Part shown: piece by piece, positions 13,570 through 36,394 of the stretch
Layout of the letters: each line of letters begins with the position of its first letter
How positions within the stretch are numbered: the first letter of the stretch is position 1
Virus record (IMG/VR): IMGVR_UViG_3300045283_000110
Span: 1-47,913 of that record
Origin: a virus
Reading direction: 5' to 3' (one strand)
DNA length: 47,913 nt
Notes under the pieces: model-generated
Seen by the model: only the letters and a program-made list of their open reading frames with translations
Told to the model about the DNA's origin: nothing
Database searches by the model: none
Position numbers and translations under genes: made by a program

Positions 13570-13571
13570 GA

Positions 13572-13865: not shown

Positions 13866-13867
13866 GG

Positions 13868-15415
13868 CTAGTGTCCTATGCAGATGAAGTTGAATTTTGT
13901 GCTCGTGGCCGAGGCATAGTTAATGATGACCGATGACGTAGAGACCGTACCCACACTGAATGCCGCAGGGGTGATTGAGCCATTGGCATCAGTAATAACG
14001 CATGTTGGAGCCGCGACGAAAGCCACGCCGAAAGTTATCGTGCAGGCAGTCGTGGCGCTGCTTCCGGTAGTGACCTGCCCTGCTGTATCGAATCCCGTAA
14101 TCGAAGGCGACGTGCCGCAGGTACCTACAGTCGGCGCCGTGCTGCCTGCTGTATTGATATGTCGACCTAAAAAGAAGTCTCTCCAGCGCAGCGTCGTGGT
14201 GCCGAGGTCGTAGGTGTTGTCGGTTTGGCCTCGAAGCGCAGTCGCGATAACGCTCACGATGGTGGTGCCGGCTACCTGCAAGAATAGTTGGTTGTTTCCC
14301 GAGTTGATCGTGGTATTGCCAGCGGTAGTCAGGGTCAACGCGCCCGTGCTCTTTGGGGTTATGGTGAGCGGAACGGCAGCGTCCGATCCTGTTGAGGCAA
14401 TCGTAGGCCCGGAACCCGTGATGGCGTTTTTGATATCCACGTAATTGACCGGAGCGCTAGTGCCGGTATTCGGGGGCGACAGGGTAAGTACGTTTCCATA
14501 GGTATTGGCCGTGCTGCCCGTGCCCGCCTTGTTGGTATTTTGCCAGGCGATATTGCCGCCCAGGCCGGTCCCCGTAGAGCCTGACAACTTGATGACCTCG
14601 TTCGCTCCGGCGTGGTCCGTGCCCGTGGCACTTGCGAATGTCTCGGTGACGGCTTGTGGTGCGGCGGCCGCAGGGTAGATGCCAATCGCGCCGGCACCGT
14701 CGTCGGTGATTGCCGAGTTCTGAAGGAACGTGCCCTTGGCTAAGGTATTCGACGTTATGGCGGGTGTTGCTACTACCGGAACGGCCGTGGCCGTCGGCAC
14801 CGGCGTGGCTGGTGGAGTCGGGGTCGGCACCACCGGCACGAGAGTGGCCGTCGGGACCGGCGTGGCGCATCCTAGCGCCCCCGCCGCGCTAATGGAGATT
14901 CCCACTCCCGGCGTTGGGCAGGCATTGCCCGCATAGGCTCCGAGCTCCGTTGCTGCGAATACCGAAATCACCCCAGGCGTGCCGAACACCAGGGGTGTCG
15001 GGGTAGCCACGGCCGGGATAGGCGTGGCCGTAGGGACTAACGTAGGCGTAGGTAACGGTGTCGGATTGGTGATCGTCAGGTTGGTACGCGAGTTTACCAC
15101 ATCCGTCGTGCAGGCAATCAGATCGCCGATGCAGTTCCAGATCCGCCAGGCCGTCGTCGGGGTGCCCTCGTCCTGGTTCGTGTCGTAGGCGGTATAGGGC
15201 GTCGCCGTAGGAAGCGCCGTGGCCGTGTTAATTGGGGTCGGAAATGTCTGGGGCGTGACCGTGGGTGCCGGCGTCGCCGTGAACATGGGGGTGGCCGTGG
15301 GGGCCGGCGTATCGGTCGGTCGCGGAGTTGTCGTGGCTACGGGTGTCGGGTGCACGTTGGCCGCCTCAGCGCTTCCGACCCAGAGCGCCAGAATGATGGC
15401 TAGAGCGCGGCCCAT
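13868..15415 (-). CDS. Exported Thr/Pro-stalk fibre-like protein (515 aa)
   Basis: Predicted 515-aa protein with a signal peptide (MGRALAIILALWVGSAEA), then Thr/Pro-rich linker blocks at about 23-75, 115-145 and 185-215 (for example TPRPTDTPAPTATP) separated by short folded parts. The C-terminal half is Gly/Thr/Ser/Asn-rich as in trimeric fibres, and the end has the tail-fibre pattern YDLGTTTLRWRDFFLG followed by a Cys-containing terminal domain. The gene overlaps the preceding fibre-like gene by 16 bases. It may be a host-adhesion fibre or an exported surface protein; the signal peptide is unusual for an ordinary fibre. Confidence 0.68.
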   Translation of the reverse strand: MGRALAIILALWVGSAEAANVHPTPVATTTPRPTDTPAPTATPMFTATPAPTVTPQTFPTPINTATALPTATPYTAYDTNQDEGTPTTAWRIWNCIGDLIACTTDVVNSRTNLTITNPTPLPTPTLVPTATPIPAVATPTPLVFGTPGVISVFAATELGAYAGNACPTPGVGISISAAGALGCATPVPTATLVPVVPTPTPPATPVPTATAVPVVATPAITSNTLAKGTFLQNSAITDDGAGAIGIYPAAAAPQAVTETFASATGTDHAGANEVIKLSGSTGTGLGGNIAWQNTNKAGTGSTANTYGNVLTLSPPNTGTSAPVNYVDIKNAITGSGPTIASTGSDAAVPLTITPKSTGALTLTTAGNTTINSGNNQLFLQVAGTTIVSVIATALRGQTDNTYDLGTTTLRWRDFFLGRHINTAGSTAPTVGTCGTSPSITGFDTAGQVTTGSSATTACTITFGVAFVAAPTCVITDANGSITPAAFSVGTVSTSSVIINYASATSTKFNFICIGH

Positions 15416-16257
15416 TCATTCCCCACTATACCCGTGCCTGCCAGAAACATCCCATCGAAGTTGTTCGCTAGGACCAGCGATGCCGCAGTATCTATCTTCT
15501 CCGTTCCATTCGGGACTACGGTAATATTGTTGGCAAAGGCGTTTCCGGTGGCGTCTTTGACATAGACCCCAAACTTCGCAACAGCCGCGGGCAGGTTGAT
15601 CGTTCGAGCGCCACCCGAAGTATCGACCATGACCAGGAGATCGGTAGGGAGAACCGTGTAAGGATAGGCGCCCGGTTGCGTGATGTTCGTGCCAAAGCTG
15701 AACCCCCCGGAGCTCGTAGCTGCGGTAGTGGCTACCGTGATCTGTCCCTGGGCATTGACCGTAATGACGGGAATCGCCGTGGCCGAGCCGTAGGTCGCCG
15801 CTACAACACCCGTGCTCGTGATCGCCACGTCGTTGGCGTTCGACGTGATGCCCGTGCCGGCTCCTACGTTCAGTGTGAAGTTGCCGTTGGCGCCCCCATC
15901 AGCGGAGGTCAGCCCATTGCCGGCCACCAGAACGCGCTCCGCAGTGAGCGAGCCATTCAGCGAGACACAGATGTAGGTAGCGTTGACCGGCGCGGCACCG
16001 CCGCCCCCGCCGTAGGTTACCTGCGTCCGGTCGTTCGTCAGGTCATCGGTAATCGACGCGCCGATGAAGTCGATCGTGGACCGGATCGGAACCTGGGTGC
16101 CGTTATCCTGCACCCCCGTCATGACGGTAATCTGCTGCTCGAGGGCGCGAAGTAGATCCTCGCACCACTTCTGAACATCCCGGTCCTTGAAATCGGGACG
16201 CTGGGGGAATCTAAACTGGCCGAGCTGAGAGGCTAGCCGTCGTAGCTGGATCGCCAC
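15400..16257 (-). CDS. Tail fibre-like protein (285 aa)
   Basis: Predicted 285-aa protein without signal peptide. The N-terminal 45 residues are helical (a likely attachment domain), then a Gly5 hinge (YGGGGGAAPV), then a Gly/Thr/Asn/Val-rich beta repeat region. The C-terminal part has the common phage fibre element LVMVDTSGGARTINLPAA followed by KDATGNAFANNITV. Directly downstream of the adaptor gene, as expected for a fibre attached to the connector. Confidence 0.72.
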   Translation of the reverse strand: MAIQLRRLASQLGQFRFPQRPDFKDRDVQKWCEDLLRALEQQITVMTGVQDNGTQVPIRSTIDFIGASITDDLTNDRTQVTYGGGGGAAPVNATYICVSLNGSLTAERVLVAGNGLTSADGGANGNFTLNVGAGTGITSNANDVAITSTGVVAATYGSATAIPVITVNAQGQITVATTAATSSGGFSFGTNITQPGAYPYTVLPTDLLVMVDTSGGARTINLPAAVAKFGVYVKDATGNAFANNITVVPNGTEKIDTAASLVLANNFDGMFLAGTGIVGNEWAAL

Positions 16258-16260
16258 GCA

Positions 16261-16980
16261 TTAGCCCACGGTGTACGGCCAAGAGAAGCCGTAAGGTGCG
16301 ATGACCTGGTCCGTATCCCACATGCTGTCAAACTGGTTCCAGTCGAGCTCCTGGTTGAGCATCATCTGAAGATTGGCCGAGATCCGACTCATCGCATTCG
16401 CCGCCCGGTCGGTCTTCATCAGGGCTTGCCAGCCGAAGGACTCCGCCAGGTGAATCCAGTCTTCCTGAAAGATGACTGGCACCTCGGTCGTGCCCGTGAC
16501 GGGCAGGCGCCGATAGTCGATCAGGATCTCGTACTCCTTGTCGGGCTTCGGATCGAAGGCCAGCATGTATCCCCACCTGGCCCAGCGCATGGGCGGCCCG
16601 GGGGCCTGCATGGACAGGGACCGGTACTCCGTCCAAGCAAACCGACGCATCTTGAACAGGTCCGAGCTGTCGGCCGTATCGGTCGCCCCGTTGTTCCGGA
16701 CGTTCTTGATCCCGACCACGTTGGTCGCCGGGGGCAGGATCTCTAGTAGGCTGTACTCGCTCTGGCCGTTGATGGTCAGCATCGGGAAGCCCAGAACGTC
16801 GATGTCCGGAGTCTCGATGACGCAGCCGGCGATACGGGCTTGCGCCGAGTCGAGCCACTGGGTCAGCCGGTTGGTCGATGCCTGGTCGTCGGTAGCATCC
16901 GCCCCCATGGGGCGGTTGCCTAGACGGAGCTTCAATTCCTGGAGAGCATCGGAGAAGTTGTAGAGGTTATTGAACGGCAT
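16261..16980 (-). CDS. Head-tail adaptor-like protein
   Basis: Predicted 239-aa protein resembling adaptor or tail-tube A proteins of podoviruses: a helical N-terminus (NFSDALQELKLRLGN), the TNRLTQWLDSAQARI helix, a beta middle with TEYRSL and WARWGYMLAFDPKPD, and a helical C-terminus. It lies upstream of the fibre and stopper genes. The family is inferred from this layout and the length. The product would bind the portal and the stopper. Confidence 0.62.
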   Translation of the reverse strand: MPFNNLYNFSDALQELKLRLGNRPMGADATDDQASTNRLTQWLDSAQARIAGCVIETPDIDVLGFPMLTINGQSEYSLLEILPPATNVVGIKNVRNNGATDTADSSDLFKMRRFAWTEYRSLSMQAPGPPMRWARWGYMLAFDPKPDKEYEILIDYRRLPVTGTTEVPVIFQEDWIHLAESFGWQALMKTDRAANAMSRISANLQMMLNQELDWNQFDSMWDTDQVIAPYGFSWPYTVG

Positions 16981-18914: not shown

Positions 18915-19079
18915 TTAGAGGCCTAGCTCCGTTTTCCGAAACTCGTCCCAGTGAGCCGCGTAACGGACGCTCACCTTTTGCTTGAAATTAGCGTCCTTCG
19001 GTGGAATGGGCTTCTGGCAGCCCTTACACCACCAGAAGTGAGCAAGCATCCACTCGCCGTTATAGTGCGCGCAATTCAT
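18915..19079 (-). CDS. Small Cys/His zinc-ribbon-like protein
   Basis: Predicted 54-aa protein (MNCAHYNGEWMLAHFWW then CKGC). The Cys3-His5 and Cys18-Cys21 spacing suggests one zinc site. The ATG overlaps the TGA of the endolysin gene upstream in the transcript, so it is coupled to it. Function unknown. Confidence 0.55.
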   Translation of the reverse strand: MNCAHYNGEWMLAHFWWCKGCQKPIPPKDANFKQKVSVRYAAHWDEFRKTELGL

Positions 19080-19498
19080 TGTCCTTGGGTGCGATGCCAG
19101 ACCTTCAGCACGCGGTTGACCCAGCCCATGAAGTATTGTCGCCGAAGAGGATTCTTCTCCGCTATATCGGCGTACCGCTGAATCCGCATGAGAAGCGCGG
19201 TCGGTACGCTCCAGGAGCCATGGGCTACTTCTATCGCGAAGTTCTCGCCCTGATTAACGGCCGTGTCGAAAATGACCAGGCTCATCGGCCACCTCAGCCT
19301 GTAGAAGTCCACCACCGGCCAGTATTCTCTTTTATAGATATCCTCAGCCTCAGCACGGGTAAGATTGACCACGTCGATTCCCGGATGCGCCCTGCTCGAG
19401 ATCCCATATTTGGTGAGCCCACCAGAATCCCCCACGATCTTAGATCCGCCCTCGAGCTCGTCAATGACAAACTTAACCGCCTCCGGGAAGCCCGCCAT
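19076..19498 (-). CDS. Endolysin, GH108-like N-acetylmuramidase
   Basis: Predicted 140-aa muramidase that cleaves the glycan chain of peptidoglycan at lysis. The GH108 signature is visible: DELEGG at 13-18 with the catalytic E16, DSGGLTKYGIS at 24-34, LTRAEAEDIYKREYW at 46-60 and DTAVNQG near 78-84. No signal peptide is seen, so a holin would be needed for release. The usual C-terminal peptidoglycan-binding domain is short or absent (family members are often 160-180 aa). It starts 3 bases after the zincin-like gene. Confidence 0.85.
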   Translation of the reverse strand: MAGFPEAVKFVIDELEGGSKIVGDSGGLTKYGISSRAHPGIDVVNLTRAEAEDIYKREYWPVVDFYRLRWPMSLVIFDTAVNQGENFAIEVAHGSWSVPTALLMRIQRYADIAEKNPLRRQYFMGWVNRVLKVWHRTQGQ

Positions 19499-20278: not shown

Positions 20279-20482
20279 CTAGAGTCCCGCACAGCAGCGC
20301 AGATCCACGGACTCTCCCGAGGATACGTCGATACAGACGCTGGCGGCTTGGCCGTCGGAGGTGATGACCTGCATCCTTTTGAGCTGCGGCGTCACCGGAC
20401 AGGTGAAGTGAGCGACCACGCCGGCCAGCGCGGAGCAGCTAGCCAGGGGTAGCAACAGAATCAGAAGCCACAGGTTTTTCAT
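20279..20482 (-). CDS. Small lipoprotein
   Basis: Predicted 67-aa protein with a type II signal peptide: MKNLWLLILLLPLASC, Cys16 as the lipidated residue. The mature 51 residues hold four Cys in a beta-rich segment. A lipid-anchored periplasmic protein beside the endolysin could be an outer-membrane spanin, but it lacks the usual Pro-rich or coiled-coil body. Follows the putative holin with a 1-base gap. Confidence 0.65.
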   Translation of the reverse strand: MKNLWLLILLLPLASCSALAGVVAHFTCPVTPQLKRMQVITSDGQAASVCIDVSSGESVDLRCCAGL

Positions 20483-20483
20483 A

Positions 20484-20789
20484 CTAGTGTCCTCTCTTCG
20501 ATTGAAGATAGTCCGGCTCGACCACGGGCACCTTGCGTGCCTTGATGCCGATGTCCTTGGCCAGCTCGTTGAGAAAGATGGAAAACAAGCCGCTTGCGCC
20601 GGGGGGCCACGACACGCCGGTTACGTTGCTCTGGGCCCAGTTCACCAGCTCGCCGACAGCACCAGCCAAAGGAACGACCAGCGAGCCGGGGATAACCGCC
20701 ACGGTGGAGTCGACCAGCTTGGTCGTAAGCTCGACCACCAGCGGGGCAAGCATCTGGAACACCAACGGGTAAGTCAGGGTAGTATCCAT
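20484..20789 (-). CDS. Putative holin
   Basis: Predicted 101-aa protein with two hydrophobic segments (about 6-22 and 30-50: VAVIPGSLVVPLAGAVGELV) and a third weaker one at 60-78 (GASGLFSIFLNELAK), then a basic C-terminal tail. The layout resembles phage proteins annotated as holins. Position just ahead of lipoprotein, zincin-like and endolysin genes supports a lysis role. Confidence 0.5.
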   Translation of the reverse strand: MDTTLTYPLVFQMLAPLVVELTTKLVDSTVAVIPGSLVVPLAGAVGELVNWAQSNVTGVSWPPGASGLFSIFLNELAKDIGIKARKVPVVEPDYLQSKRGH

Positions 20790-20799
20790 CTAATCTCCT

Positions 20800-21597
20800 T
20801 TACTTGATAGCCTGACCCATAGCCTCGATGGTCAGGGTCAGACTGGTCAAATCGCGCGACCGGTTGTCGTAGATCATTAGCGGACTATGTGTGGATTTCG
20901 CAGCTTTCGCAAACGTCGAGGCCACCGCAGGTCCCGGATCGAGAATCGTGCCGCAGTCGGTCGAGTGTATAATGGCCGGCTCGTCGCGCTGTAAGGCAGC
21001 TAGCAGGCGCTCGGAATCGCAGAAGTGTACATCGGTGAACGCAGCTGCCGGCGCTCCGTTGATCGGAATGTCGACGAGATGGTCTGGAGCCACACGCTCG
21101 CGCGTCAAGACTAGCCAGTGGGCGGCTTTGCTGGGTGACGCTCCCGGCTCGGATACCGGCGACACGAGCACGCCGTCTAGGCCGACCGCTTGGATTTGCC
21201 CGAGCTGATCGAGGAACCAGGTATCGTCCTGTGCCATGACGGCGCAGTTGTTGGCGTTGGCGATATTGACGAAGATGGTCACCTGACGCTGGCGGCCCTC
21301 GTCGACCACCTCGGCATAGGCTCCTGGATCGGTGCCGAAGAAGTCGGTTGGCCGTGGCGCTCCAGGCGGACAGGGCGCAAACGTCTGGTCGGATACCCAC
21401 TCCACTTCCGTAAGCGTCAGCCCGGCATCGGCGTTTGCATCCACGATCTCGCGCGGGTGCGCTGGCCAGCCTTGCACGAGACCGGCCCCGATCAGGAAAT
21501 CTGCTTGTGGGGTTTTGTGGACGGGTTTTGCTGAGCCGCCGCTGCCGCATCCCAGGAGCACAAGGCCCAGGAGCCAGGCGACGGCTCTTCTGCTCAT
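20800..21597 (-). CDS. Lipoprotein with TIM-barrel-like domain
   Basis: Predicted 265-aa protein. Residues 1-18 carry a lipobox (LLGLVLLGC). The mature protein resembles an uncharacterised TIM-barrel, glycosidase-like domain seen in environmental phages: the segment HPREIVDANADAGLTLTEVE, then DFFGTDPGAYAEVVDEGR, then GLDGVLVSPVSEPGA. No catalytic acid pair can be assigned with certainty. It would sit in the host envelope facing the periplasm or outside. The ATG overlaps the TGA of the CXXCH peptide upstream. Confidence 0.65.
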   Translation of the reverse strand: MSRRAVAWLLGLVLLGCGSGGSAKPVHKTPQADFLIGAGLVQGWPAHPREIVDANADAGLTLTEVEWVSDQTFAPCPPGAPRPTDFFGTDPGAYAEVVDEGRQRQVTIFVNIANANNCAVMAQDDTWFLDQLGQIQAVGLDGVLVSPVSEPGASPSKAAHWLVLTRERVAPDHLVDIPINGAPAAAFTDVHFCDSERLLAALQRDEPAIIHSTDCGTILDPGPAVASTFAKAAKSTHSPLMIYDNRSRDLTSLTLTIEAMGQAIK

Positions 21598-21758
21598 TCA
21601 GGCTTCTTGACCAGCTCGAAGCCACGGCGCCAGAGAGACTCGAGCGTGCCCTGGGCGTCTATCCGTATCGACGGAATGAGCGCCTCGAGCTGGGCATTCT
21701 GGTCTAGCCGGTCTTCCGGCTTACCGTGACACACGGAGCAGTTATTGTGGGGGTGCAA
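21594..21758 (-). CDS. 54-aa protein with CXXCH motif
   Basis: Predicted from TTG 21758 to TGA at 21594-21596. The N-terminus reads MHPHNNCSVCHGKPEDR: CSVCH is the c-type heme-binding signature, and HPHNN upstream adds two His residues. There is no signal peptide, so covalent heme attachment would need an unusual route; zinc binding is the simpler reading. It overlaps the membrane protein upstream by 17 bases and the lipoprotein gene downstream (ATGA). The weak ribosome site keeps the start uncertain. Confidence 0.55.
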   Translation of the reverse strand: MHPHNNCSVCHGKPEDRLDQNAQLEALIPSIRIDAQGTLESLWRRGFELVKKPE

Positions 21759-21924
21759 CGGATTGCCCGTGTGCCTGATACTGCTTCAGGGCTTCCTGGA
21801 GAGAACGCACCTGAAGGCTGAGGTTGACCTGACTGAGAATCGACGCCGAGACGAGTTGCCATGCAAACCACGCAATCACCATCCCCGCCGCCACCCTGAC
21901 CATCCACTCTGTCGTCTGGCTCAC
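21742..21924 (-). CDS. Small membrane-anchored protein
   Basis: Predicted 60-aa protein from a GTG that directly follows the stop of the fibre-like gene. Residues 8-30 are one transmembrane helix (MVRVAAGMVIAWFAWQLVS). The rest is a helical, Gln-rich periplasmic- or cytoplasmic-type tail (LQVRSLQEALKQYQ). Function unknown. Confidence 0.6.
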   Translation of the reverse strand: MSQTTEWMVRVAAGMVIAWFAWQLVSASILSQVNLSLQVRSLQEALKQYQAHGQSVAPPQ

Positions 21925-22761
21925 TTATCCGATCCTCCAGTTGGTGCCGTCACAGTAGACGGGAACGTGGGTAGTGCCCCCAGCAGCCACGATGGCCCCG
22001 ATACCCAAAGTAAATGAAGTGGCATTGGAGTTGTTGACCGCCTTATGCTGTCCCTCAGTCGTGCCGTCGCATGTCCCTAGGCTGGCGACCGCGACAGGGG
22101 TACTGCTGATTCCGCCGCTCGCCGTAATGTTCCGCGTCGCGCCGACGGACACGAAGTTGCCGGTGGTGGTGACGTCCCACGACTGATTGGCCGTTGAGTA
22201 GTTGCCGGCACCCAAGTGCAAGTTGCCCTGACCTGCAATGACATAAAAGCCGGCTGTGCCGTCGCTGACGACCGCCCCCGATGATGGAATATTGTTCGTT
22301 CCGGTGCCGGCCGCAGTCGACGCGTTTTTCGCGATCGCCGCTCCTACACCTTCCTTGTCGAACAAGTTGGCCACCATTTGCGTATCGGCGTCGTCATTGA
22401 ACGGCAGAAAACCAGAAAGCTTGCCTGTTCTGGAAATTTGAAAATACGTGCCCGCTACCGGAAATAGCTGCCAACCGCCGAAGGTCAGTGTGGAAGTGCC
22501 GCTGTCATAGACCGGCCCATTCGCGCAGTCGATAACCGCGCCATTGATGAACATCACCGCGCCAGGAGCGCTGCCTGTGCAGGCAGTTGTGCCGGAAGTG
22601 ATACCCCCACCACCACCCCCCCCACCCGCCACCAAATCCACCCTGAACGCCTGATTGGCCGAATCGTAGACCTTCTGGATGATCTGGTCGGTAGAGAGCG
22701 CCATCAGGAAGATGACGCTGAAACCAACCAGGAAAGAGACGATTGCTTGCCCCTTTTTCAT
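21925..22761 (-). CDS. Membrane-anchored or exported fibre-like protein (278 aa)
   Basis: Predicted 278-aa protein starting at ATG 22761 ([20 protein letters not shown]), a signal- or anchor-like segment. It is followed by the motif QIIQKVYDSANQAFRVDLV, a run of eight Gly residues encoded partly by a G8 tract, and then a Gly/Thr/Asn-rich fibre-type body. The same VYDS motif ends the 49-aa protein encoded upstream. The C-terminus (VPVYCDGTNWRIG) is a frequent ending of phage fibres. Whether the hydrophobic segment is cleaved or used to attach to the virion is unknown. Confidence 0.65.
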   Translation of the reverse strand: MKKGQAIVSFLVGFSVIFLMALSTDQIIQKVYDSANQAFRVDLVAGGGGGGGGITSGTTACTGSAPGAVMFINGAVIDCANGPVYDSGTSTLTFGGWQLFPVAGTYFQISRTGKLSGFLPFNDDADTQMVANLFDKEGVGAAIAKNASTAAGTGTNNIPSSGAVVSDGTAGFYVIAGQGNLHLGAGNYSTANQSWDVTTTGNFVSVGATRNITASGGISSTPVAVASLGTCDGTTEGQHKAVNNSNATSFTLGIGAIVAAGGTTHVPVYCDGTNWRIG

Positions 22762-22907
22762 GGGGTCACCTGGTTGATCCGGATAGCCGTGTGCACGGAA
22801 TCGTACACGCTCTGCCAGATCTGACTCGTCGTCTTGGCGTAAGCTACCCCTGCCGTCACGATCCCGAGCAGCACGCCTAGGGCCAGCCATCTCTTGTCTA
22901 TTCTCAT
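22758..22907 (-). CDS. 49-aa exported peptide with VYDS motif
   Basis: Predicted 49-aa protein: signal peptide [20 protein letters not shown] (continuing VAYA), then [19 protein letters not shown]. Only the anchor motif of the fibre-like protein downstream is present, with no fibre body. It overlaps both neighbours by 4 bases. It may be a fibre remnant left by recombination, or a free-standing adaptor to which fibres attach. Confidence 0.6.
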
Positions 22908-25261
22908 GGTCCCACCTCTACACCCGCCGTGGCGGCGTTTACAGCCGACCAATTGACTCCGATGTCCGTCCCGTCCGTTCCGGCATTGTGTCCGGGGCTT
23001 CCCCCGGTCAGGACGCAGCCGGAATCTCCAGCGTTGGCGCAAGTAGTGGCGTTGGTGAACCCAACGGCTGCCACGTTCGCCAAGCACTGGTTGCCAGCCG
23101 GATAGCTGCCGCAGATGCCCGGCACATCCCACCAGATATTGTCCGTCACCGTGTAAGGCAATACCACCGAGTTGGCCAGAGCGCTCGTGCCCACACCATC
23201 ATTGTTGGCGATGATCGTGAAGCCGCCGAAGGCGGAGTTCCCGACTACGAGATTGTTGGACGACCAGAAGTTGACCCATTTCTTGGTTGCCGAGTCGAAG
23301 ACGATATCGCCCCCCAGCCCAGGCGTCGCCGCGGTGGACAGGATATAGGTGTTATGGTCGAACGCTGCCCCGACGGCCCATCCGCCTAAGAGCTGGCTCT
23401 GCCCCGCCGAGGTAAGCCATTTGGTCGGATTGACGAGGTACGAGAGGTTATTCTGCCACAGCATTCGCTTAGATTGCTGGGACACGAAGGGGCCGTCCTG
23501 GCCGAACGTGTTGAAGTCCCGGCCGACGTTTTTGATCTTATTCAGCCGGAAAGTCACGTCCGACACCTCGGCGAAGGAGCAGGTATTGTCCTGGTTTCGC
23601 ACGGTAAAGAGCACCGGGAAGCCGTTCTGAGCAGCCGCCCAGACCTGGTTGATGACGTTCCCCTGCGCCAGGATTCGGATGCCAAGCTTCAGCTCGAAGG
23701 CGTTCTTGATCGTCCGGTTGATGCCATCATAGCTCGGATCGTCGGACTTCCAGGTCACCGGCTTGTACATGTAGTTCCGGGTGATCGTCAGATCGTTCGG
23801 CAAGAAAGCCACGCTTGGCAAACAGTTTCCTCCCGTCAGGATGCTCTGCCCGGCCGCCTCCAAGAAGTTGTTGTCGAACAGCATTGGGCCCGGCCCCCAG
23901 ATGACGCCGATTGCCTGCGCATCGGTGCCCGGATCGTAGAAATTGTAGACGTAGCTATTGATGATGGCGATATTGTTGCCCGTCGTATAGAAGCCCCGCC
24001 GAGCGAAATTGGCGTTTCCCGTCCCGGCGTTTATGACCCGGTCGAAGATGATGTGGTTCGGCACGGTGGCCGTACTGGTGCCCCCGGGCTCGGAGATGAT
24101 GACGTTGTTGTACGTACCGAAGGTCGTCGTGGCTTGAATCTTGATGCCGATGATCCGATAGAACGAGGCGTTCGCACCGATCTGGAAGATCGGGTTGGAG
24201 CCGCTATTGTTCCGCAGAACCGGCATGTTCACGGCGTCGCTGAGCGCTACCCGGTTTCCGGGCGCCGGCAGGGCCCCCGGCACGTCCGTCTCGATGATTA
24301 CCCAGTTGGGGCCGCTTCTCGCCGGTAGCGTCCAGGCCCCGGTGCAATCGAGGGTGTGGAGGATCTTGATCGTGCCGCCGAGCGGATTGGCCGCCACGGT
24401 ATTGATGGTGTCCTGAAGAGTCGTACCGCCGCAGGTGCCTACCGTGACGGTCGGTCCGGGTGGGGTGACGATAGCCGTGTTGACCTGTAGCTGGGGCAGC
24501 GTCGGCACCACGAAGGGTGCGGCGGTCGGCGTCGGGCTGACCGTGCCAGTAGCCGTAGCTGCCGGCGTCGGCGTCTGCGTCGGCGTGAAGGTTGGTGTCG
24601 GCGGAATCGGCGTATTGGTCGGCGTCCTGGTAGCCGTCGGTGTGAACGTGGGCGTCGGGGGCACCGGAGTATTGCTCGGTGTAAACGTCGGGCTAGCCGT
24701 GAAGGTGGCCGTCGCCGTAGCCGTGGCGGTTGGTGTGCCCGTTGCCGTGGCCGTTGCCGTGGCCGTCGGGGTGGATGTAATCGTCGGCGTCGGGGTGACG
24801 GTCGGCGTATTGCTCGGAGTGAATGTCGGACTGGCCGTAAAGGTCGGCACCACCGTGAAGGTCGGTGTCGGCGTCCTGGTCTGAGTCGGCGTAGACGTGG
24901 GCGTCCTGGTGAAGGTCGGCGTGAACGTGGCCGTCGCCGTGCTCGTGGCCGTGGCCGTAGCCGTAGCCGTAAAGGTCGGCGTAACCGTCGGCGTATTGCT
25001 TGGTGTGAACGTCGGGCTGGCCGTAAAGGTCGGAGACGGCGTAAAGGTCTGTGTCGCGGTCGGAGTCGCGGACGGCGTAAAAGTAGCCGTGGGTGTATTG
25101 GTCGGAGTCCGGGTCGCGGTGCTGGTCGGAATAGGCGTCAGGCTGTCAAAGACGATGCGGCCCTGAAAGGTCATGGTGCCCTGCCAGGTCTGATCAGCAA
25201 TAGCCGGCAACCCGACCAGAAAGAGCGGCAGCCCAATCGCCCATAACCAGCGGCGATTCAT
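22904..25261 (-). CDS. Exported Thr/Pro-stalk protein with beta-helix domain (785 aa)
   Basis: Predicted 785-aa protein with three parts: a signal peptide at 1-22 ([20 protein letters not shown]); a Thr/Pro-rich stalk at 42-249 including three copies of [13 protein letters not shown]; and a 530-residue domain with the short repeating strands of a right-handed parallel beta-helix (pectate-lyase/tailspike type), for example [26 protein letters not shown] and [12 protein letters not shown]. Such domains bind or cleave polysaccharide. The stalk resembles surface proteins of environmental bacteria, which suggests acquisition from a host. It could be an exported surface protein or an unusual tailspike. 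Confidence 0.72.
24515..25138 (-). repeat. Thr/Pro-codon low-complexity repeat tract
   Basis: About 620 bases encode residues 42-249 of the 785-aa exported protein as near-continuous Thr-Pro, Thr-Ala and Thr-Phe dipeptides. The unit [13 protein letters not shown] occurs at residues 79-91, 141-153 and 187-199. The DNA is a degenerate GTCGGC/GTGGCC-type repeat. Copy-number change by recombination or slippage would alter stalk length. Confidence 0.85.
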
Positions 25262-25262
25262 C

Positions 25263-26255
25263 TCAGCCTAGTCCCTTATGCCTTAGCACCGGCAGCCCGC
25301 AAATTCCCGGTGTCGTCACTCGACGCACATAGGCTTCTGCTCGTAACGCCTCCGAGGTAATACCGTCCGGTGCCTGGAGCATATGGCGCTCCTGCTTCAC
25401 TGTAAAAGGCCAATTGATGCAGGAGTCTCGCAAAATACCCGCAAAGTAGTGCGACGCAATTTGCCCCGAGGTAAGGTGACGATTGTAGGTTGCGATCTCA
25501 TCCAAGGTGCCGTTCATAAAGGCCGTCGGAAAGCCTCCACCAGTGAAAAACTGGTCCGCCCCTACTCCCCAAATCGCGTTCCCTCCGCATGTTCCCGTCG
25601 AGGAGGAGCCGGTATTCTCGAGGACGCCATTGAGATAAGCACCCATAGCAAACGAGCTGCCGGTTACCGCGCACGCACCGTAGTACCAAGTGTTGGTCAA
25701 GATAGTGGTCGTACCTGAAACTTGGGCGAAGTTGCCTCCAGCATTGTTCTGGAACAGAACGCAACTGAAGTGTCCGCCCCCGTCGATACCCGCCACGTCC
25801 ATGTAGGTACCCGTAGCGGGGGCCGGCCCTCCGTCGCCGGTGTGCCCCCAGAAAGCTCCTCCCACAACGGGCTGATTGAACCATCCCTCTGAAGTGTAGT
25901 CATGCGTCAGGGCTGGAGAGCCGAAGCATGGCACAGCCGGGCCGGCCACAGTGGCCAGGCAATTATTGATATTCCCGCCGAAATCCGCCTCGTATTGCGT
26001 GGTGCCATTGAATGTGGTGGCCTTGTTCGGATTAGCGCCCGGGATACCCGTGGCATTCAGCGTCGGGGCATTGAAAATCGTCATCCCGTCCGACGCGCCA
26101 TGGAATCCAGACCCGTTCTGAATCGTGCCCGACGCCGCGTCCATCCGAAAATAGATGCACGGGATGTCGGCCTGAATGATGGGGAAATAGCAGTCGTCGT
26201 CCGCCCTGCTCGCGGCGCAGAGCGCGAGAAACAGGAACGCAACAATACGCTTCAC
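25263..26255 (-). CDS. Exported LamG/lectin-like protein (330 aa)
   Basis: Predicted 330-aa protein from a GTG at 26255 overlapping the previous stop (GTGA). Signal peptide at 1-18 ([18 protein letters not shown]). Residues about 75-290 resemble a concanavalin/LamG-like jelly roll: [11 protein letters not shown], then [15 protein letters not shown], then [11 protein letters not shown], and [11 protein letters not shown]. These folds bind carbohydrate. Several Cys suggest disulfides after export. It is one of three consecutive exported adhesin-like genes. Confidence 0.68.
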
Positions 26256-27289
26256 GTCACTGCGCCGTTTCCGCGACACTGCCAATGTCCGCTGGATACG
26301 TCCATGCAGGTATCCGCGCCCCAGACCACGCTTATCGTCGCTATCGTCCCGGCGTTGATGTTTCCAGAGGCCGTTCCGATGATACAGGCGTTCGTACCAG
26401 TATCTACCTTGATGAGGTCGAGTATGCGCCCCGACCCGGTCGGAGCGGGCATTGTATAGGTCTTGTCCGAGCTTGAGCCCGAGGTGCAAAGAACGACCCG
26501 GTCAGTGGTATTGGCTGATACGCTCGTGCTGATGGAGCGGATTCCCGTGATATAGAGCGCCTGCGAATAGCTGAGGTCGAGCGCGCCGAGGGTCAGCGTC
26601 GTCCCATTATCGGTCGGCTTGGCATCACCGATAGCGGTCGAGCTCGTCCACTTCGCCAGGTGAGTCGTCGTGCCCGTGCCCGTCACGGTCCCGGCGCCGC
26701 CGCTTCCGCCGAAGCAGTCCCAGGCCCCATTGATGTACTGGGCCATGGTGCCGTGCGGAGTTCCTGTCGTGGTGCACGGGCTAGTAGCCGCGTTACAGTT
26801 CGAGCAATAGGCGATGGTGCCGTTCGACGGGGCGCCGAGATTGGCCAGGAGATCGCCGCTGAAGGTCGCCTCTCCGGGGCCTCCGCCCCCGAGGGTCAGG
26901 ATGGAATTCGTATAGTTCCAGGTGAAGTTCTGGTCCGCCCCGAAGATGCCCATGGCGTTGTACTGGACGTAGGTATCGGCCCCAGCCGGGCCGCCCCCCG
27001 AGCCCACCAGGACGCAAGTCGCCGGGGTGATGCCCGCCCCGATCACCTGGATAGCGTATCCCGCTGGACAGGCCACCTCCGGGAAGTGGCCAACGATACA
27101 GGACGAGTCGATGTAACCCCCGTCCGAGCACTCATAGACGCCGGACAGGAACTTGCCGTTAGAAACCAGGAAGTGCTGATCGTTGGTCAGGACGACATGG
27201 GTAGTCCCGGAATTGCCACTCTGAGCCCACACTGCCGCCCCAACCAAGAGTAAGCCGAGGAGGATTAGGGTGCCAAATTTTCTTAGCAC
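26252..27289 (-). CDS. Exported fibre-like protein (345 aa)
   Basis: Predicted 345-aa protein with a signal peptide (MLRKFGTLILLGLLLVGAAV, cleaved near AWA-Q). The body is rich in Gly, Thr, Ser and Asn, with fibre-like sections (GADTYVQYNAMGIFGADQNF; NSILTLGGGGPGEATFSGDL) and several Cys. The C-terminal part has a fibre-end pattern (KTYTMPAPTGSGRILDLIKV). It overlaps the lectin-like gene downstream. Same combination of export signal and fibre body as its neighbours. Confidence 0.66.
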   Translation of the reverse strand: MLRKFGTLILLGLLLVGAAVWAQSGNSGTTHVVLTNDQHFLVSNGKFLSGVYECSDGGYIDSSCIVGHFPEVACPAGYAIQVIGAGITPATCVLVGSGGGPAGADTYVQYNAMGIFGADQNFTWNYTNSILTLGGGGPGEATFSGDLLANLGAPSNGTIAYCSNCNAATSPCTTTGTPHGTMAQYINGAWDCFGGSGGAGTVTGTGTTTHLAKWTSSTAIGDAKPTDNGTTLTLGALDLSYSQALYITGIRSISTSVSANTTDRVVLCTSGSSSDKTYTMPAPTGSGRILDLIKVDTGTNACIIGTASGNINAGTIATISVVWGADTCMDVSSGHWQCRGNGAVT

Positions 27290-27292
27290 CCG

Positions 27293-27679
27293 TTACTCGC
27301 CTGACGCAGTATCCGGGTTGAAGACCTGCTCGAGCATGTAGACATCGGGTGTTCCGGTGATGATATTGGCCCCATTCACCCTGATTCGATAGAGCGGGTC
27401 CGGCCAGTTGACGGAGTCTCCCGGCGCGAGTGCGGTGACGATGGTCTGCCAGGAGGCGTTCGCGTCCGTAATGCCGCTATTGGTCACCCCGCCGCCGTTA
27501 TTCGGCTGGGGGGCGTCGTCCAGGCTCATCTGGATCGCCACGGAACCAGTCCATACGGCCCCGGAATCGCCGGTCTGGGGAGACGTGAAAAGAAACGGCG
27601 GCTTCGCCAGGCGGACGACGATACTGGCGGAGCTCGTCGCAGTGGCTAGTGTCTTAGTTAAGGCTACTCTGGCTGCCAT
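27293..27679 (-). CDS. Hypothetical virion-module protein (128 aa)
   Basis: Predicted 128-aa beta-rich protein without signal peptide. It contains GSVAIQMSLDDA and DPLYRIRVNGANI, typical of small phage structural proteins that describe a beta sandwich. It lies between the zinc-ribbon protein and the first exported fibre gene. No family recognised. Confidence 0.55.
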   Translation of the reverse strand: MAARVALTKTLATATSSASIVVRLAKPPFLFTSPQTGDSGAVWTGSVAIQMSLDDAPQPNNGGGVTNSGITDANASWQTIVTALAPGDSVNWPDPLYRIRVNGANIITGTPDVYMLEQVFNPDTASGE

Positions 27680-27687
27680 CGGGCCTC

Positions 27688-28281
27688 CTAGCTCAAACCG
27701 GAAATAGTGGCCGGCACGTAGGGAGTATAGTTAAGGAATCCGTCAGCGTCCACGAACAGATCCCCGGCGCCCTCCCAGGTGGCCGTCGAGTAGATGGTGT
27801 CACCTTGAAGGAAGTGGAAGTTCCGAGAATAGAAGAGGTATCCGCCCTGGATGTAGAGCGTCCAGCCGTTGTTCATCTGGATACCGCCGTCCGGGCTCAC
27901 CCCATCCGTCCCAACCCTCGTCGAGGGGCTAACGAAGTTGATGTACTCCCCGAAATACATATCATAGGTAATGGCCGCGTCCGTGGTCGAGGGGCCACTG
28001 CGGTCGAATAGCGTGTAGACGGAGAAGGAGGTGTCCTTGTCCGCCGACAGGCCCTCGCCCACCGGCACGACCGGACTGTAGGTCTTCCGGACGCCCTCGT
28101 AGGGGAAGATCGGCCGCATGATCTGGTCCCGGCTGATCATGCCGTCCCAGCAGGGAGGGCACTGCCAACCCCATCGCGGATTGTAGTGGATCTGCTGACT
28201 AGGCCAGGTCTCGCCGCAAACCTGGCAGAGGGAGAAGGAGCCGAACGCGAATGGCCTAACGCGGCGATTGAATACCTTCAC
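27688..28281 (-). CDS. Zinc-ribbon plus beta-rich phage protein (197 aa)
   Basis: Predicted 197-aa protein. Residues 19-45 hold CQVCGE and CPPCWDG around a WGW element, a zinc ribbon. The following 150 residues are beta-rich (GGIQMNNGWTLYIQGGYLFY). The start GTG overlaps the stop of the Lys-rich 44-aa gene (GTGA). Probably a virion or assembly protein; function unknown. Confidence 0.6.
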   Translation of the reverse strand: MKVFNRRVRPFAFGSFSLCQVCGETWPSQQIHYNPRWGWQCPPCWDGMISRDQIMRPIFPYEGVRKTYSPVVPVGEGLSADKDTSFSVYTLFDRSGPSTTDAAITYDMYFGEYINFVSPSTRVGTDGVSPDGGIQMNNGWTLYIQGGYLFYSRNFHFLQGDTIYSTATWEGAGDLFVDADGFLNYTPYVPATISGLS

Positions 28282-28412
28282 TTCTTCCTAGCGCTTGCCT
28301 TCTTACCCCGCTTAGGCGCTGCGGGTTTGGGCTTAGGTTTACTCCTTTTGCGGGTTTTTTTGAACTCCCGCAGGAACATCTTGATGTCCTTGTCTGCCGT
28401 CGTCAGGCTCAC
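28278..28412 (-). CDS. 44-aa Lys-rich basic peptide
   Basis: The ORF MSLTTADKDIKMFLREFKKT and onward encodes 44 residues. A short helix is followed by a tail dominated by Lys, Arg, Pro and Ala (KPKPKPAAPKRGKK). GTG start and TGA stop both overlap neighbours (GTGA at both ends), strong evidence that it is translated. It contains an A7 run (28355-28361 on the complementary strand). A nucleic-acid-binding role is plausible. Confidence 0.6.
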   Translation of the reverse strand: MSLTTADKDIKMFLREFKKTRKRSKPKPKPAAPKRGKKASARKK

Positions 28413-29386
28413 TTACCCACCTCCTTCTCGCACCTACGCAGGAAATACTTGGCTACGGGCCAGACATCGGCCACCGGCCGCCACGTCTGGGCCTGATAAC
28501 GACCGCTCTCGATCATCTGCGGAGGCGCCCAGGACCACATGAGTCTCGACTGGTCGCACCGATCGTTGTCCGGCCAGAGCGCGAAAGCGGGCTTGTTCAA
28601 AACCGTGCGAATGACGTTCATCCCCGAGCTATAGCCGATATAGCTATCCAGGTGGTTCATCTGCTCGACCATCTGCGGCACCGAGGTGCGGCCGACCGTA
28701 AAGGGCAGGTCGAGCTCGCAAGCGATAACGGTCGTCAGGTCGTCCCACCCTCCCCCGACCAGGAGCGGCCTCCATCCGAGGTCCATGACACGTCTCAGGA
28801 AATCGCACCACTCCTCCTTGCCCCAGGTCTGCCAGGCTTCGGCACCGCGGTAGGACGCGCACGAGATGCCGACGATGGGGCCTTCCTTCATGGGGTGCGG
28901 GGGGCCGAATCGGTCGCCGTTGATGGCGCCCTGAGTGTATTTGCGGCTGCTAGCCCGGTCTTCGTTTTTCACATAGAGCGGGTAGTGGTAGTTTGTCGGC
29001 AGATCCGGAAGCCAATCCTTCAGGGGCCAACCCTCCTCCAGGTGTCGATTGGCCTCTAAGGGGATAATCGCGTCGGGGCGCCCGGCCACCTGGCGCACCT
29101 TCTTCCAGGTCGGCTTGGAGGCGAAATCGAGTCCCATCGCGCCCTCGAACTGAAGGATTCTCATGTAATCGCGCCCGACTATGGCGTGCTCCAGGATCTC
29201 TCCGTTCGGACCCTTCCTGTCCAGGTCGTAGTCGGCATCCATAATCCCGCAGCAATGAACGTAGTCCTTGGTGCGCCGCGGATGGCCGTCGACGATACGG
29301 ATGCTCGAAATCTCGTCCTTGACGGAGTGGAGCTTGCTCCACATCCACGACCAATCACCGATTCCGGATGGACAGATGATCCTCAT
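28409..29386 (-). CDS. GT9-like (heptosyltransferase-type) glycosyltransferase
   Basis: Predicted 325-aa protein from ATG 29386 (MRIICPSGIGDWSWMWSKL), overlapping the previous stop by ATGA. The N-terminal GIGDWSW element and the C-terminal GWRPLLVGGG and SYIGYSSGMNVIRTVLNKPA segments fit the GT-B fold of family 9, which transfers heptose-type sugars to LPS cores. Last gene of the glycan cassette. Substrate unknown; it could modify virion or host glycans. Confidence 0.68.
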   Translation of the reverse strand: MRIICPSGIGDWSWMWSKLHSVKDEISSIRIVDGHPRRTKDYVHCCGIMDADYDLDRKGPNGEILEHAIVGRDYMRILQFEGAMGLDFASKPTWKKVRQVAGRPDAIIPLEANRHLEEGWPLKDWLPDLPTNYHYPLYVKNEDRASSRKYTQGAINGDRFGPPHPMKEGPIVGISCASYRGAEAWQTWGKEEWCDFLRRVMDLGWRPLLVGGGWDDLTTVIACELDLPFTVGRTSVPQMVEQMNHLDSYIGYSSGMNVIRTVLNKPAFALWPDNDRCDQSRLMWSWAPPQMIESGRYQAQTWRPVADVWPVAKYFLRRCEKEVGK

Positions 29387-30345
29387 ACCATCCCCGTCCC
29401 GCCGAGCGCCAAGAATTTGTGCTCGAGCGCCTTGTTCCAGAGCTTCATGGACTCGTACTGGAGAGCCCCGCTCTCCTCCGCCTTCATCCCACAGGCCGCC
29501 TCGAATGTTCCGATCCATTCTGCGGTTTCTCCGAAGTGGTTGGACTGAGCGCCATAATGACAGTATCCGCGACCCGGCATCGCTGCGTTGACCCACCTGT
29601 TCGAGAGCCAAACGCGGTGGTGGAAAGTGTCGTCGTTAGCCCAGTATTCCCTGGCGAAGCCTCCGAGGTCTTCGTAGGCTTTTCTAACGATGAGCCAGCA
29701 GGCTCCAAACGGGTTCTTGTAGAGACAAGGAGCCCTAAAGAATGCAGGGTTAGGTGGAACTCCTTCAAGCAGTTGGGGCATATCGAGACTGTGCTGCCAG
29801 TTTGTGAAGCCAAAATCTTTGTGGTGGTGATATAGCTCCCATCCGGGGATAGCCAAGGACGCCAGAGGTATGCCAGCGTTTTCCAGAATCCGCGTCCACC
29901 TGAGAGCTTCAATGGTCACCTCCGGGGCTAGCCAGACGTCGTCCATCAAGAAGAGTACATAGTCCCATTTCGCGACTTCCATGCACTGAATCGCGTGACC
30001 GGCGCGGCCATCCCACGGGGCATGATGGACGAAGTCCGCTCCATGATACTCAGCCACCGTGCGATCCAGATCCATCTCTCCAAGTGTGATAGCATCGCTC
30101 GAAACGAGCGTGGGCAGGTTGCTGGGCAGAGAAGAAAGCAGAATAGATAGCCGTCCATTGCTGTAACCTCGATGCGTCATCACCACGCAACCGTAGCTGA
30201 GCCCCTGTAACCCCCGCGGGTATTCATAGGGCGGCCGACGCTTCGGCAGGTCCGTGCGAACGGCCGGACCGCTGAGATGCCAGACCGTCTGGCGATTGCG
30301 GACGTGCTCGGGTTGAGTTTCATCCTCCCATGGATATTTAGGCAC
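29383..30345 (-). CDS. GT-A type glycosyltransferase (320 aa)
   Basis: Predicted 320-aa protein. GTG 30345 is chosen because the frame upstream of it overlaps the methyltransferase out of frame. Features are GCVVMTHRGYSNGRLSILL at the start, the DDV metal-type motif in YVLFLMDDVWLAPE, and YEDLGGFAREYWANDDTFHH near the end. These fit GT-A nucleotide-sugar transferases (family 2-like). Overlaps the methyltransferase and the GT9-like gene at either end. Confidence 0.65.
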   Translation of the reverse strand: MPKYPWEDETQPEHVRNRQTVWHLSGPAVRTDLPKRRPPYEYPRGLQGLSYGCVVMTHRGYSNGRLSILLSSLPSNLPTLVSSDAITLGEMDLDRTVAEYHGADFVHHAPWDGRAGHAIQCMEVAKWDYVLFLMDDVWLAPEVTIEALRWTRILENAGIPLASLAIPGWELYHHHKDFGFTNWQHSLDMPQLLEGVPPNPAFFRAPCLYKNPFGACWLIVRKAYEDLGGFAREYWANDDTFHHRVWLSNRWVNAAMPGRGYCHYGAQSNHFGETAEWIGTFEAACGMKAEESGALQYESMKLWNKALEHKFLALGGTGMV

Positions 30346-30940
30346 GATTGTACCCCCACACGCCGACGCCATGAGCATAACCGAAATGATGCTGATGGCC
30401 CGTGCCGTCCGTGTACTCGGGGCACTCACGCAAGAGCGTCCAATGATGTCCCGCCCTGAATGCCCCGAGTCGCACGCTTTCTCGGTCCCAATCGTCCAAT
30501 ACCAGCACCGCCTCTTCCGCGAGAAAGCCCTCCACCCTATCCATGAAATCAGCCGTCTGCTCGGCCGAATGGTCCGCATCGTAGAAGACGCAACCGACCG
30601 GCATCGGCAGATTCGTCTCTTTCAGGAAGCTCTGCCAGGTCGATTTGTAGAAGACGATGTTCGGCGTGAACGGCTCTGGCACCATGCCGTACTTGTCTCC
30701 AGGGTCCACGCCGTAGAGCTGCTTACCATCGTTCCCGCTAGCTGCCGCCTCGAGCGTGCGCCCCTCGAGCGTGCCGACCTCGAGATAGGCCTCGTCTGCC
30801 GGCATCATCTGAACCAACCTATTCAGCAGGTGCTCGACGCGCGACGACGAGAAGCCCCGACGCTTACTCAGCGGGGGCAGGTAGAGCTGCGTCTCGCGGC
30901 GCAGAGATTCCACGGCGGCGTTCGCACTAGACCACTTCAC
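30338..30940 (-). CDS. Class I SAM-dependent methyltransferase
   Basis: Predicted 200-aa enzyme. SAM-binding motif I is YLEVGTLEGRTLEAA at 52-66. An acidic residue at the end of the next strand is in YGVDPGDK (D79). VFYDADHSAEQT at 118-129 and LVLDDWD at 146-152 follow, as in the methyltransferase 24 group, which includes sugar and small-molecule methylases. The GTG start lies within the end of the LAGLIDADG gene behind AAGGGGTG. In this cassette it probably methylates a sugar. Confidence 0.75.
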   Translation of the reverse strand: MKWSSANAAVESLRRETQLYLPPLSKRRGFSSSRVEHLLNRLVQMMPADEAYLEVGTLEGRTLEAAASGNDGKQLYGVDPGDKYGMVPEPFTPNIVFYKSTWQSFLKETNLPMPVGCVFYDADHSAEQTADFMDRVEGFLAEEAVLVLDDWDRESVRLGAFRAGHHWTLLRECPEYTDGTGHQHHFGYAHGVGVWGYNRA

Positions 30941-31361
30941 ATGACACCCCTTTCTTATTGAGACGCTTCAATTCCAGGGCTGCCTTTGCGCGAATTTCTA
31001 ACGCGAGATCCGATAGTCTTACTCTAGGCTGCTCACAATCCAGAATCTTCGTGGCCAGATCCAATTGCGGACCCTTCAAGCGTACGTAGGGACGAATCAC
31101 TTCGATGAATCGGCGCTTCATGTCATGGCGATGGAAGCGCAGGAAATAACAATCCTTTTGCGGGGGCTTCCGTTTTTCATGGAAGATAGTCCCAAATCCC
31201 AGGTTCGACGCGACGGAATGAAGAATCCCTTGATCGGTCATGCCAATCTGTAGGCGAACTTCGTGACTCTGGTTGTGTTTGTAAGCGAAGCAACTTCCCT
31301 CGCCATCAAACAGTCCCGCTATGTACGCCTTCTGAGTTTCCGTCAGGCTGTAATAGACCAA
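30927..31361 (-). CDS. Free-standing LAGLIDADG homing endonuclease
   Basis: Predicted 144-aa endonuclease. One LAGLIDADG helix is clear: YIAGLFDGEGS at 13-23, followed by the usual beta strands (VRLQIGMTDQGILH; TIFHEKRKPPQKDCYFLRFH) and IIRPYV-type ending helix. A single motif implies a homodimer cutting a near-palindromic site. The TTG start has an excellent GGAGGAAGC leader. The gene overlaps the epimerase 3' end by 56 bases and the methyltransferase by 14, and it is the only mobile-type gene in the window. Confidence 0.85.
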   Translation of the reverse strand: MVYYSLTETQKAYIAGLFDGEGSCFAYKHNQSHEVRLQIGMTDQGILHSVASNLGFGTIFHEKRKPPQKDCYFLRFHRHDMKRRFIEVIRPYVRLKGPQLDLATKILDCEQPRVRLSDLALEIRAKAALELKRLNKKGVSCEVV

Positions 31362-32376
31362 GCTTCCTCCGCTCAGCGGTTACCAGGTCGTCGATAATTT
31401 CCTTCAGGGGTTTTCTAGTCCACCCTGGGTAATCGGCTTCAAATTTACCGGTGTCGGTTATCCAAAACTTATGATCGCCAACGCGCGCCGGGCCGTTATA
31501 GAGCACCTGGAAATTCAGCCCGTGGTGGTTCATTAGGTAGTCTACCGCCTCGCGCACCGATATCGAGTTCGCGGGACCGCCCCCCATGTTGTAGACGGCT
31601 TGCTTGGGGTCGGCCGCATAGCGCAAAATGGCATCCGCCACGTCCGTGGCGTCGATATTGTCCCTGACCTGATAGCCCTCGTGGCCATAGACGACGTATT
31701 CCTCGCCCGAAACGGCACATTTCACGAGGTAGCCGAGAAATCCCTGGAGCTCGACCGCGGTCCCGCCCGGCCCGGTGAGGCACCCACACCGAAAAGTGAC
31801 CGTTTTCATGCCGTAGCAGCGCCGGAACTCCTGAAACATCAGGTCGGCGGCCAATTTCGACACCCCGAAGGGTGTATGAAGCGTGTGATCGACCGGAAAC
31901 GTCTCGGCTATGCCCTGTTCGAGACTCGTCAGGGCCGGAACTAGCCGCTCGCCACCCCGAACGTAGCTGAATGCGTTGACTCTATCGCCGTAGACCTTGT
32001 TGGTGGACAGAAATACCACAACGGCTTGAGGTGATAGGTTCCGAATCGCCTCAAGGAGCTCCACCGTGCCCATGGCGTTATGCTGGAAGTCCTTGACGGG
32101 ATGCGTGCGGCTCCAATCGTGGCTGGCCTGCCCCGCACAGTGAACTATCAGGTCCGCATCGCCCACCAGGCCGAGCCTCTGACGATAATCCTCCGTGTGA
32201 ATCCGCACGCCAAGAGCCGAAAGCTGGGAGAGCCGCCATTGCACGGAGCCCTTATGTCCGTACCATCGGCCCCGGTTGTCGCAGTCCGTTCCCCAGACCT
32301 TATGACCGCGCTTCGTAGCCTCTTCGGCGACCGTCGACCCGATCAGACCGCCGATGCCGGTGATGTAGATCTTCAC
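31306..32376 (-). CDS. NAD-dependent sugar epimerase/dehydratase (CDP-paratose epimerase-like)
   Basis: Predicted 356-aa extended SDR enzyme acting on a nucleotide sugar. Motifs are TGIGGLIG at 6-13 (NAD binding), STNKVYG at 124-130, TPFGVSK at 168-174 and GYQVRDN at 234-240, followed by VYNMGGGPANSISVREA. The overall pattern matches CDP-paratose 2-epimerase-type proteins. The usual active-site Tyr of YxxxK is Phe170 here. The last 25 residues run into the LAGLIDADG gene and may be an addition. First gene of the glycan cassette. Confidence 0.82.
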   Translation of the reverse strand: MKIYITGIGGLIGSTVAEEATKRGHKVWGTDCDNRGRWYGHKGSVQWRLSQLSALGVRIHTEDYRQRLGLVGDADLIVHCAGQASHDWSRTHPVKDFQHNAMGTVELLEAIRNLSPQAVVVFLSTNKVYGDRVNAFSYVRGGERLVPALTSLEQGIAETFPVDHTLHTPFGVSKLAADLMFQEFRRCYGMKTVTFRCGCLTGPGGTAVELQGFLGYLVKCAVSGEEYVVYGHEGYQVRDNIDATDVADAILRYAADPKQAVYNMGGGPANSISVREAVDYLMNHHGLNFQVLYNGPARVGDHKFWITDTGKFEADYPGWTRKPLKEIIDDLVTAERRKLGLLQPDGNSEGVHSGTV

Positions 32377-35059: not shown

Positions 35060-35070
35060 TAGGCTTTCTC

Positions 35071-36344: not shown

Positions 36345-36394
36345 TGCCTGTACGATTACGCACAAGCTTGGCGGGTGTCAACTTAGGTTAGCAC

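Follow-up and report, generated by a model that had tools for sequence, protein, structure and literature searches.

Signal-like N-termini conserved with fibre-, lectin- and beta-helix-type bodies at a fixed place in the late operon of a podovirus-type phage

The late operon of the virus record IMGVR_UViG_3300045283_000110 contains a cassette of five genes, A to E (21925-27289), whose products belong to a set with signal-like N-termini at a frequency beyond chance; these N-termini are conserved together with the bodies that follow them at a constant place in the late operons of related phages, and the cassette genes are under purifying selection. It is likely, and we hold this with considerable confidence, that proteins of this type are exported out of the cytoplasm. 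On balance, and with modest confidence, we favor the view that, free or bound to the envelope, they act on glycans outside the cytoplasm and are probably not ordinary virion spikes; the modelled body of C adopts the fold of glycan enzymes and bears a conserved polar site. No account of a cassette of this kind turned up in the openly licensed papers searched.

The window analysed here is the whole record, 47,913 bases in length, and it carries a podovirus-type late operon on its minus strand with the following landmarks:

38761-40329, minus strand, TerL
36634-38745, minus strand, portal
33568-34506, minus strand, capsid
19076-19498, minus strand, endolysin (GH108), without a signal
10825-13569, minus strand, nozzle-type protein

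The window TerL is about 30% identical to those of named phages at best, among the matches listed. Relatives in IMG/VR are G002 (47,985 bp, TerL 61% identical to that of the window), the partial contigs G005 and G006 (67%), G007 (40,923 bp, 40%), and G008 and G009 (about 50%). Searches of viral contigs with the tail genes 16261-16980 and 10825-13569 gave no relatives, and a TerL profile used in a host search gave no match in 15 genomes with C relatives or in 95 genomes of one phylum. Relative to G002 and the matched part of G005, the window's nozzle-type protein is longer at its N-terminus by about 450 residues, a long form that it has in common with G008.

The first-pass annotation had listed nine products of this operon with signal-peptide or lipobox N-termini, and all nine open reading frames are present where it placed them:

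26252-27289, minus strand, A: 345 aa, signal (VWA|Q) and fibre-like body with paired cysteines (YCSNC..PC..WDC)
25263-26255, minus strand, B: 330 aa, signal (SRA|D) and Laminin_G_3 lectin-like domain
22904-25261, minus strand, C: 785 aa, signal (AIA|D), Thr-Pro linker and predicted beta-helix body
22758-22907, minus strand, D: 49-aa microprotein, signal (AYA|K) and a 22-residue motif, nothing more
21925-22761, minus strand, E: 278 aa, hydrophobic N-terminus, STDQIIQKVYDSANQAFRVDLV and Gly-rich fibre-like body
20800-21597, minus strand, H: 265-aa predicted lipoprotein (LLGC)
20279-20482, minus strand, J: 67-aa predicted lipoprotein (LASC), adjoining the lysis genes
13868-15415, minus strand, X: 515 aa, signal (AEA|A), Thr-Pro linker and fibre-like body, beside the tail nozzle gene
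13572-13865, minus strand, Y: 97 aa, signal (VWA|G), beside the nozzle gene

N-termini were evaluated with a home-made scorer that took into account hydropathy of the h-region, charge of the n-region, a von Heijne-type matrix (-13 to +2) and a lipobox rule. Its first version recognised eight of the nine and missed H (LVLLGC), which was called post hoc once a narrow lipobox rule had been swapped for a PROSITE-like one; with the final scorer, 9 of the 39 late genes are positive at their start codons, and these are exactly the nine named. The corresponding rates are 5/197 (2.5%) for shadow ORFs and 75/6000 (1.25%) for shuffled N-termini (binomial P ~5e-7), which bears out the original list, and when the scorer was applied to T7 and P22 as controls the positives were small membrane or lysis-type proteins only. 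An A-x-A sequence precedes the predicted cut in most of the nine; the weakest call is E (LMALS|T), whose N-terminus may instead anchor it in the membrane. In a GC-rich genome, hydrophobic N-termini could arise from wrong start codons, as an effect of chance and annotation, and 7 of 24 raw calls across five phages are indeed internal starts or unlikely genes; however, the excess over shadow ORFs and shuffles, and the retention of the signal in homologs of other phages, a co-conservation that contradicts chance, leave this explanation extremely improbable.

Thr-Pro-rich linkers are typical of extracellular proteins. After those 7 calls had been removed by hand, such linkers were present in 5 of 17 signal genes and in none of 166 other late genes of the five phages (P 4e-6). 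Cysteine richness was also considered and dropped as proof of export: within genomes its content is 1.57% in signal proteins against 0.62%, whereas among the phage members of the C family it is 1.25 against 1.78%, with no enrichment accompanying the signal, and we count it as weak support. Exported products may extend beyond the late operon, since two early-strand genes unlisted in the first-pass annotation, at 6-560 and 3871-4122 (both plus strand), have the signal-like N-termini MPNTVRKLALIGILSASVAHT and MVILLILLLVGVANAQ respectively; the product of the second also bears CVCNC and a Ser/Thr-Pro stretch.

The nine had been proposed to form a single battery, and this is sustained for A to E, which make up the cassette, but not for the other four, as J lies by the lysis genes, H occupies another place in a relative, and X and Y adjoin the nozzle gene. 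The cassette is bordered upstream by a conserved gene:

27293-27679, minus strand, 128-aa product, with homologs at the border in G002, G006 and G008

Immediately on its 3′ side there are signal-bearing tail-type or glycan-type proteins in the relatives whose contigs cover the place. Comparison with related contigs, which the first-pass annotation had put forward as a check, revealed signal and fibre body conserved together at this fixed locus, with signal-bearing homologs of A in G006, of B in G008, of C and D in G007, and of E in G007 and G008; the relatives bearing these homologs span TerL identities of 40-67% to the window. The N-terminal 61 residues of A, signal included, are 47% identical to those of a 421-aa G006 protein (397-1662), and a CSDC-type segment is common to A and G002 34898-37948; UOF76952 of MW202444 also has a YCSDC segment in common with A, and a start that is signal-like by eye. 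B is 31% identical to L171 12426-13421 across approximately its full length, again including the signal, and C is 38% identical over 572 aa to its signal-bearing homolog in G007. In this last phage the 128-aa gene is unrecognised, but C, D and E keep their window order behind a homolog of 27688-28281. The G008 and G009 locus encodes a 943-aa pectate-lyase-like protein, a 472-aa E-type protein and a 331-aa Laminin_G_3 protein that is a homolog of B over its length. At the G002 locus there is a single signal-bearing gene, whose 1016-aa product has a pectate-lyase-like domain (PF12708, E 3e-13), and we count the presence of just one such gene there against the glycan-export explanation. A sugar-type block lies upstream of the cassette (28409-32376, minus strand), with weak matches to GT9, a methyltransferase and an NAD epimerase; it is kept in G002, G006 and G008, and its products could modify surface glycans or the Thr-Pro linkers.

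Aligned pairs show that the signals themselves drift while the adjoining segment is kept: within the signal 6/20 positions are identical in A and 5/18 in E, against 20/30 and 15/26 respectively in the next segment. This is the pattern in which cleaved signals evolve, and is unlike that expected of a sequence-specific virion anchor. The first-pass annotation had offered the hydrophobic N-termini as virion anchors, and export fits better because the hydrophobic part is kept in kind and not in sequence, usually with an A-x-A end. A broader possibility, that these segments are uncleaved anchors, either internal to the virion or tethering the proteins to the inner membrane until lysis, draws on the long hydrophobic stretches and weaker cut sites of E and of the E-type proteins in G007 and G008, and on the phage precedent of signal-anchor-release endolysins (PMC6116005). 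Set against it are the short n-h-c signals with A-x-A in A, B, C, D, X and Y, as well as the drift of the hydrophobic part, and we judge it quite improbable.

The microprotein D is of particular interest, as it is kept in order in G007, a phage whose TerL is only 40% identical to that of the window; its homolog there has 45 aa, ending TTDQIWQAVYDSTNQALRVRTP / LTTDQIWQAVYDSTNQALRVRTP. The conserved post-signal motif, TDQIWQxVYDSxNxALRVN, also lies directly after the signal in E (in the window, G007, and G008/G009) and in the G007 homolog of C, and is absent from the window C; no copy without a preceding signal was seen among the sequences examined. One could imagine that exported spikes reach their folded state in the periplasm, in some cases with disulfides, and attach to completed virions at lysis, the motif serving as a docking or trimer-joining element and D, which has the motif only, capping or joining the sites. 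Such docking would account for the retention of an N-terminal segment while bodies are swapped, as in receptor-binding proteins, for the confinement of the motif to positions behind signals in the sequences examined, and for the location of X and Y next to the nozzle gene. Further, the complete podovirus record MW202554 (L016), in which a lectin and proteins of 846 and 164 aa are signal-positive, has beside its nozzle gene a tail-collar-domain fibre (13349-14374) with a signal-like N-terminus, indicating that signals can sit on virion-type proteins, a point against the glycan-export explanation; the start of this fibre overlaps the upstream stop, and it was missed by the scorer, apparently for want of positive charge.

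Nonetheless, the window C has no motif, the signal-less members of the C family have no docking domain either, and we found no precedent for docking of this kind among dsDNA tailed phages. Comparison of G008 and G009 is also at odds with it, as identity is about 99% for their 943- and 472-aa cassette proteins while the nozzle (69%) and the fibre-like protein Z (85%) have diverged. For the cassette genes of this pair, dN/dS values of 0.04-0.21 show purifying selection. The contrast in identity hints, weakly because of mosaicism, that host range resides with the nozzle and Z and not with the large cassette proteins. We regard docking at lysis as the leading alternative though doubtful, and its extension to a two-compartment assembly, in which Sec-secreted spikes and fibres would mature in the periplasm and join virions at lysis through the motif, with D as joint or cap, as unlikely.

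An ordinary virion fibre is probably present as well, given that the following gene, which has no signal, lies in the tail module and is kept at the same place in G008 (43% over 201 aa):

15400-16257, minus strand, Z: fibre-like, scorer negative, flanked by the genes of tail adaptor type and nozzle; candidate for an ordinary virion fibre

As for the other genes outside the cassette, the counterpart of H in G008/G009 is a lipoprotein 24% identical to it and located between terL and portal; a search of viral contigs with H gave none, and its structure model (pLDDT 36) was unusable. J is two genes from the endolysin, has weak PHROG matches of unknown function only, and by position seems to belong with the lysis genes; it may be a lysis protein or, equally likely, a superinfection-exclusion lipoprotein. 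In G002, the gene right after the endolysin (30628-31206) encodes a lipoprotein-like product with DTNGDGKADAVDFDGDGKPDA calcium-binding-type repeats.

The fibre, lectin-like and beta-helix bodies ascribed to these proteins at first pass are upheld in part. B has a lectin-like domain (Pfam PF13385, E 1.5e-11, 45.1 bits versus a cut-off of 27.6) and C a predicted beta-helix, but the bodies of A, E and X gave no protein-family match. The relevant parts of C are:

22907-24541, minus strand, beta-helix body (residues 241-785), from a 40-member alignment and AlphaFold2 model
24511-25140, minus strand, Thr-Pro-rich linker (limits approximate), from the translation

The AlphaFold2 model of the C body, made from 40 relatives (mean pLDDT 89.4, pTM 0.93), is a right-handed beta-helix of the tailspike, alginate lyase and epimerase kind, with structural Z scores of 28 for AlgE6, 27 for the Vibrio matrix lyase RbmB, 27 for an alginate lyase, 26 for the Sf6 tailspike and 25 for Det7. 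In sequence searches there is a weak but significant match to a Paenibacillus alginate lyase profile (E 3e-9), confined to short stretches in the N-terminal part; Pfam Beta_helix is recognised in 23 of 40 C-family members, and the window C has no Pfam match. The 40-member alignment contains 11 invariant positions, including K279, N280, E283, K285, N295 and Q305 (body numbering), and the invariant polar residues among them suggest a putative active site.

Relatives of the C body are encoded on 79 viral contigs and at 68 loci of bacteria and archaea, with Acidobacteriota, Rokubacteria and many further groups represented, every locus having been confirmed by tblastn with the window sequence; a search of named phages with the C body gave none. 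By automatic call, a signal is present in 50 of the 58 cellular members with a complete N-terminus, compared with 30 of 77 members from phages; for the comparison of linkers, cysteines and starts, a few of these calls were changed on manual inspection. The cell or virus label switches at least 12 times on the family tree, from which it appears that the gene moves between cells and viruses. Two phage members are especially informative: L113 8736-10208, with a signal, and L137 9902-11308, with none, are 76% identical over 470 residues, and L137 starts (MATITVNSGG) at what would be the mature N-terminus of L113 after cleavage (ATITVNSGG). Among signal-less phage members, 27 of 37 have 40 residues or fewer before the beta-helix, and because most start at or near it they show no virion-binding domain; ahead of the body in the window C we recognised only the signal and the Thr-Pro linker, and no virion-binding domain. 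It thus looks as though the export signal can be present or absent on what is otherwise a free glycan-active protein.

The breadth of this family raises the possibility that the phages simply carry, as auxiliary or moron genes, host-type secreted enzymes that would serve to feed on or dissolve polysaccharide in the environment and play no role in adsorption, exclusion or release. C relatives are widespread and mostly secreted in bacteria, many of them coming from soil and groundwater assemblies, their labels switch repeatedly on the tree as described above, and the 943-aa protein of G008 matches a PHROG pectate lyase in the moron/AMG category. It is difficult to reconcile such cargo with a cassette that has a fixed place in the late operon, whose products range from lectin and fibre bodies to a motif-only microprotein, and that recurs across phages with TerL only 40% identical, and we consider it improbable.

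We return to exported glycan-active proteins, for which the course that we infer, from export and cleavage through enzymatic activity and site of action to benefit, would be as follows. Late in infection, these phages would make tailspike- or lectin-bodied proteins with Sec signal peptides or a lipobox, which host Sec would export, with signal peptidase removing the signal, and the mature proteins would act on glycans outside the cytoplasm. C and its relatives would be beta-helix enzymes that cut or modify polysaccharide, B a lectin, and A, E and X fibres. The likely benefit would be that polysaccharide on the surfaces of the infected cell and of neighbouring cells is loosened or masked, so that progeny escape, re-binding to debris is avoided, and rivals meet fewer receptors. 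Decoration of the infected-cell surface, with receptor masking and exclusion, as the first-pass annotation had envisaged, is possible, and the evidence would be matched just as well by secretion and release of a glycan-active enzyme or lectin. In environmental phages, beta-helix enzymes and lectins are generally interpreted as virion tailspikes or as auxiliary metabolic genes; conservation of a signal with the body points to a third site of action, beyond the cytoplasm of the infected cell. Were these proteins to act ahead of lysis, a lytic phage would have a new means of remodelling the surface of its host; were they to end on virions, the assembly of tailed phages would not take place in the cytoplasm alone.

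Several known systems resemble parts of this arrangement. The virion tailspikes of Sf6, HK620 and Det7 (gp208) have the same right-handed beta-helix fold as that modelled for C, and a late-operon place; C differs in having a signal and Thr-Pro linker with no recognised N-terminal virion-binding domain. The closest folds to the C body are those of AlgE-type epimerases, PL6 and related lyases, and RbmB (Z 25-28), at 11-16% identity. T5 Llp and phi80 Cor are receptor-blocking lipoproteins, and as phage-encoded envelope proteins they and Lom of lambda have possible parallels in J and H, which are predicted lipoproteins. The lom gene lies beside tail-fibre genes and is dispensable for plaques (PMC10695390); Lom is an outer-membrane barrel, whereas A to E are fibre-like, lectin-like or beta-helix proteins with no recognised barrel. 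Lys44 of fOg44 is a late phage endolysin exported before lysis by a true signal peptide via host Sec (PMC6116005); it acts on peptidoglycan, while the endolysin of the window has no signal. WceF of Pantoea stewartii is a biofilm enzyme with the tailspike beta-helix fold that is exported by a signal and acts on exopolysaccharide (PMC7949094); it is encoded by a bacterial chromosomal gene and has a Tat signal, whereas the proteins described here are encoded in a phage-borne cassette and have predicted signals of the Sec type.
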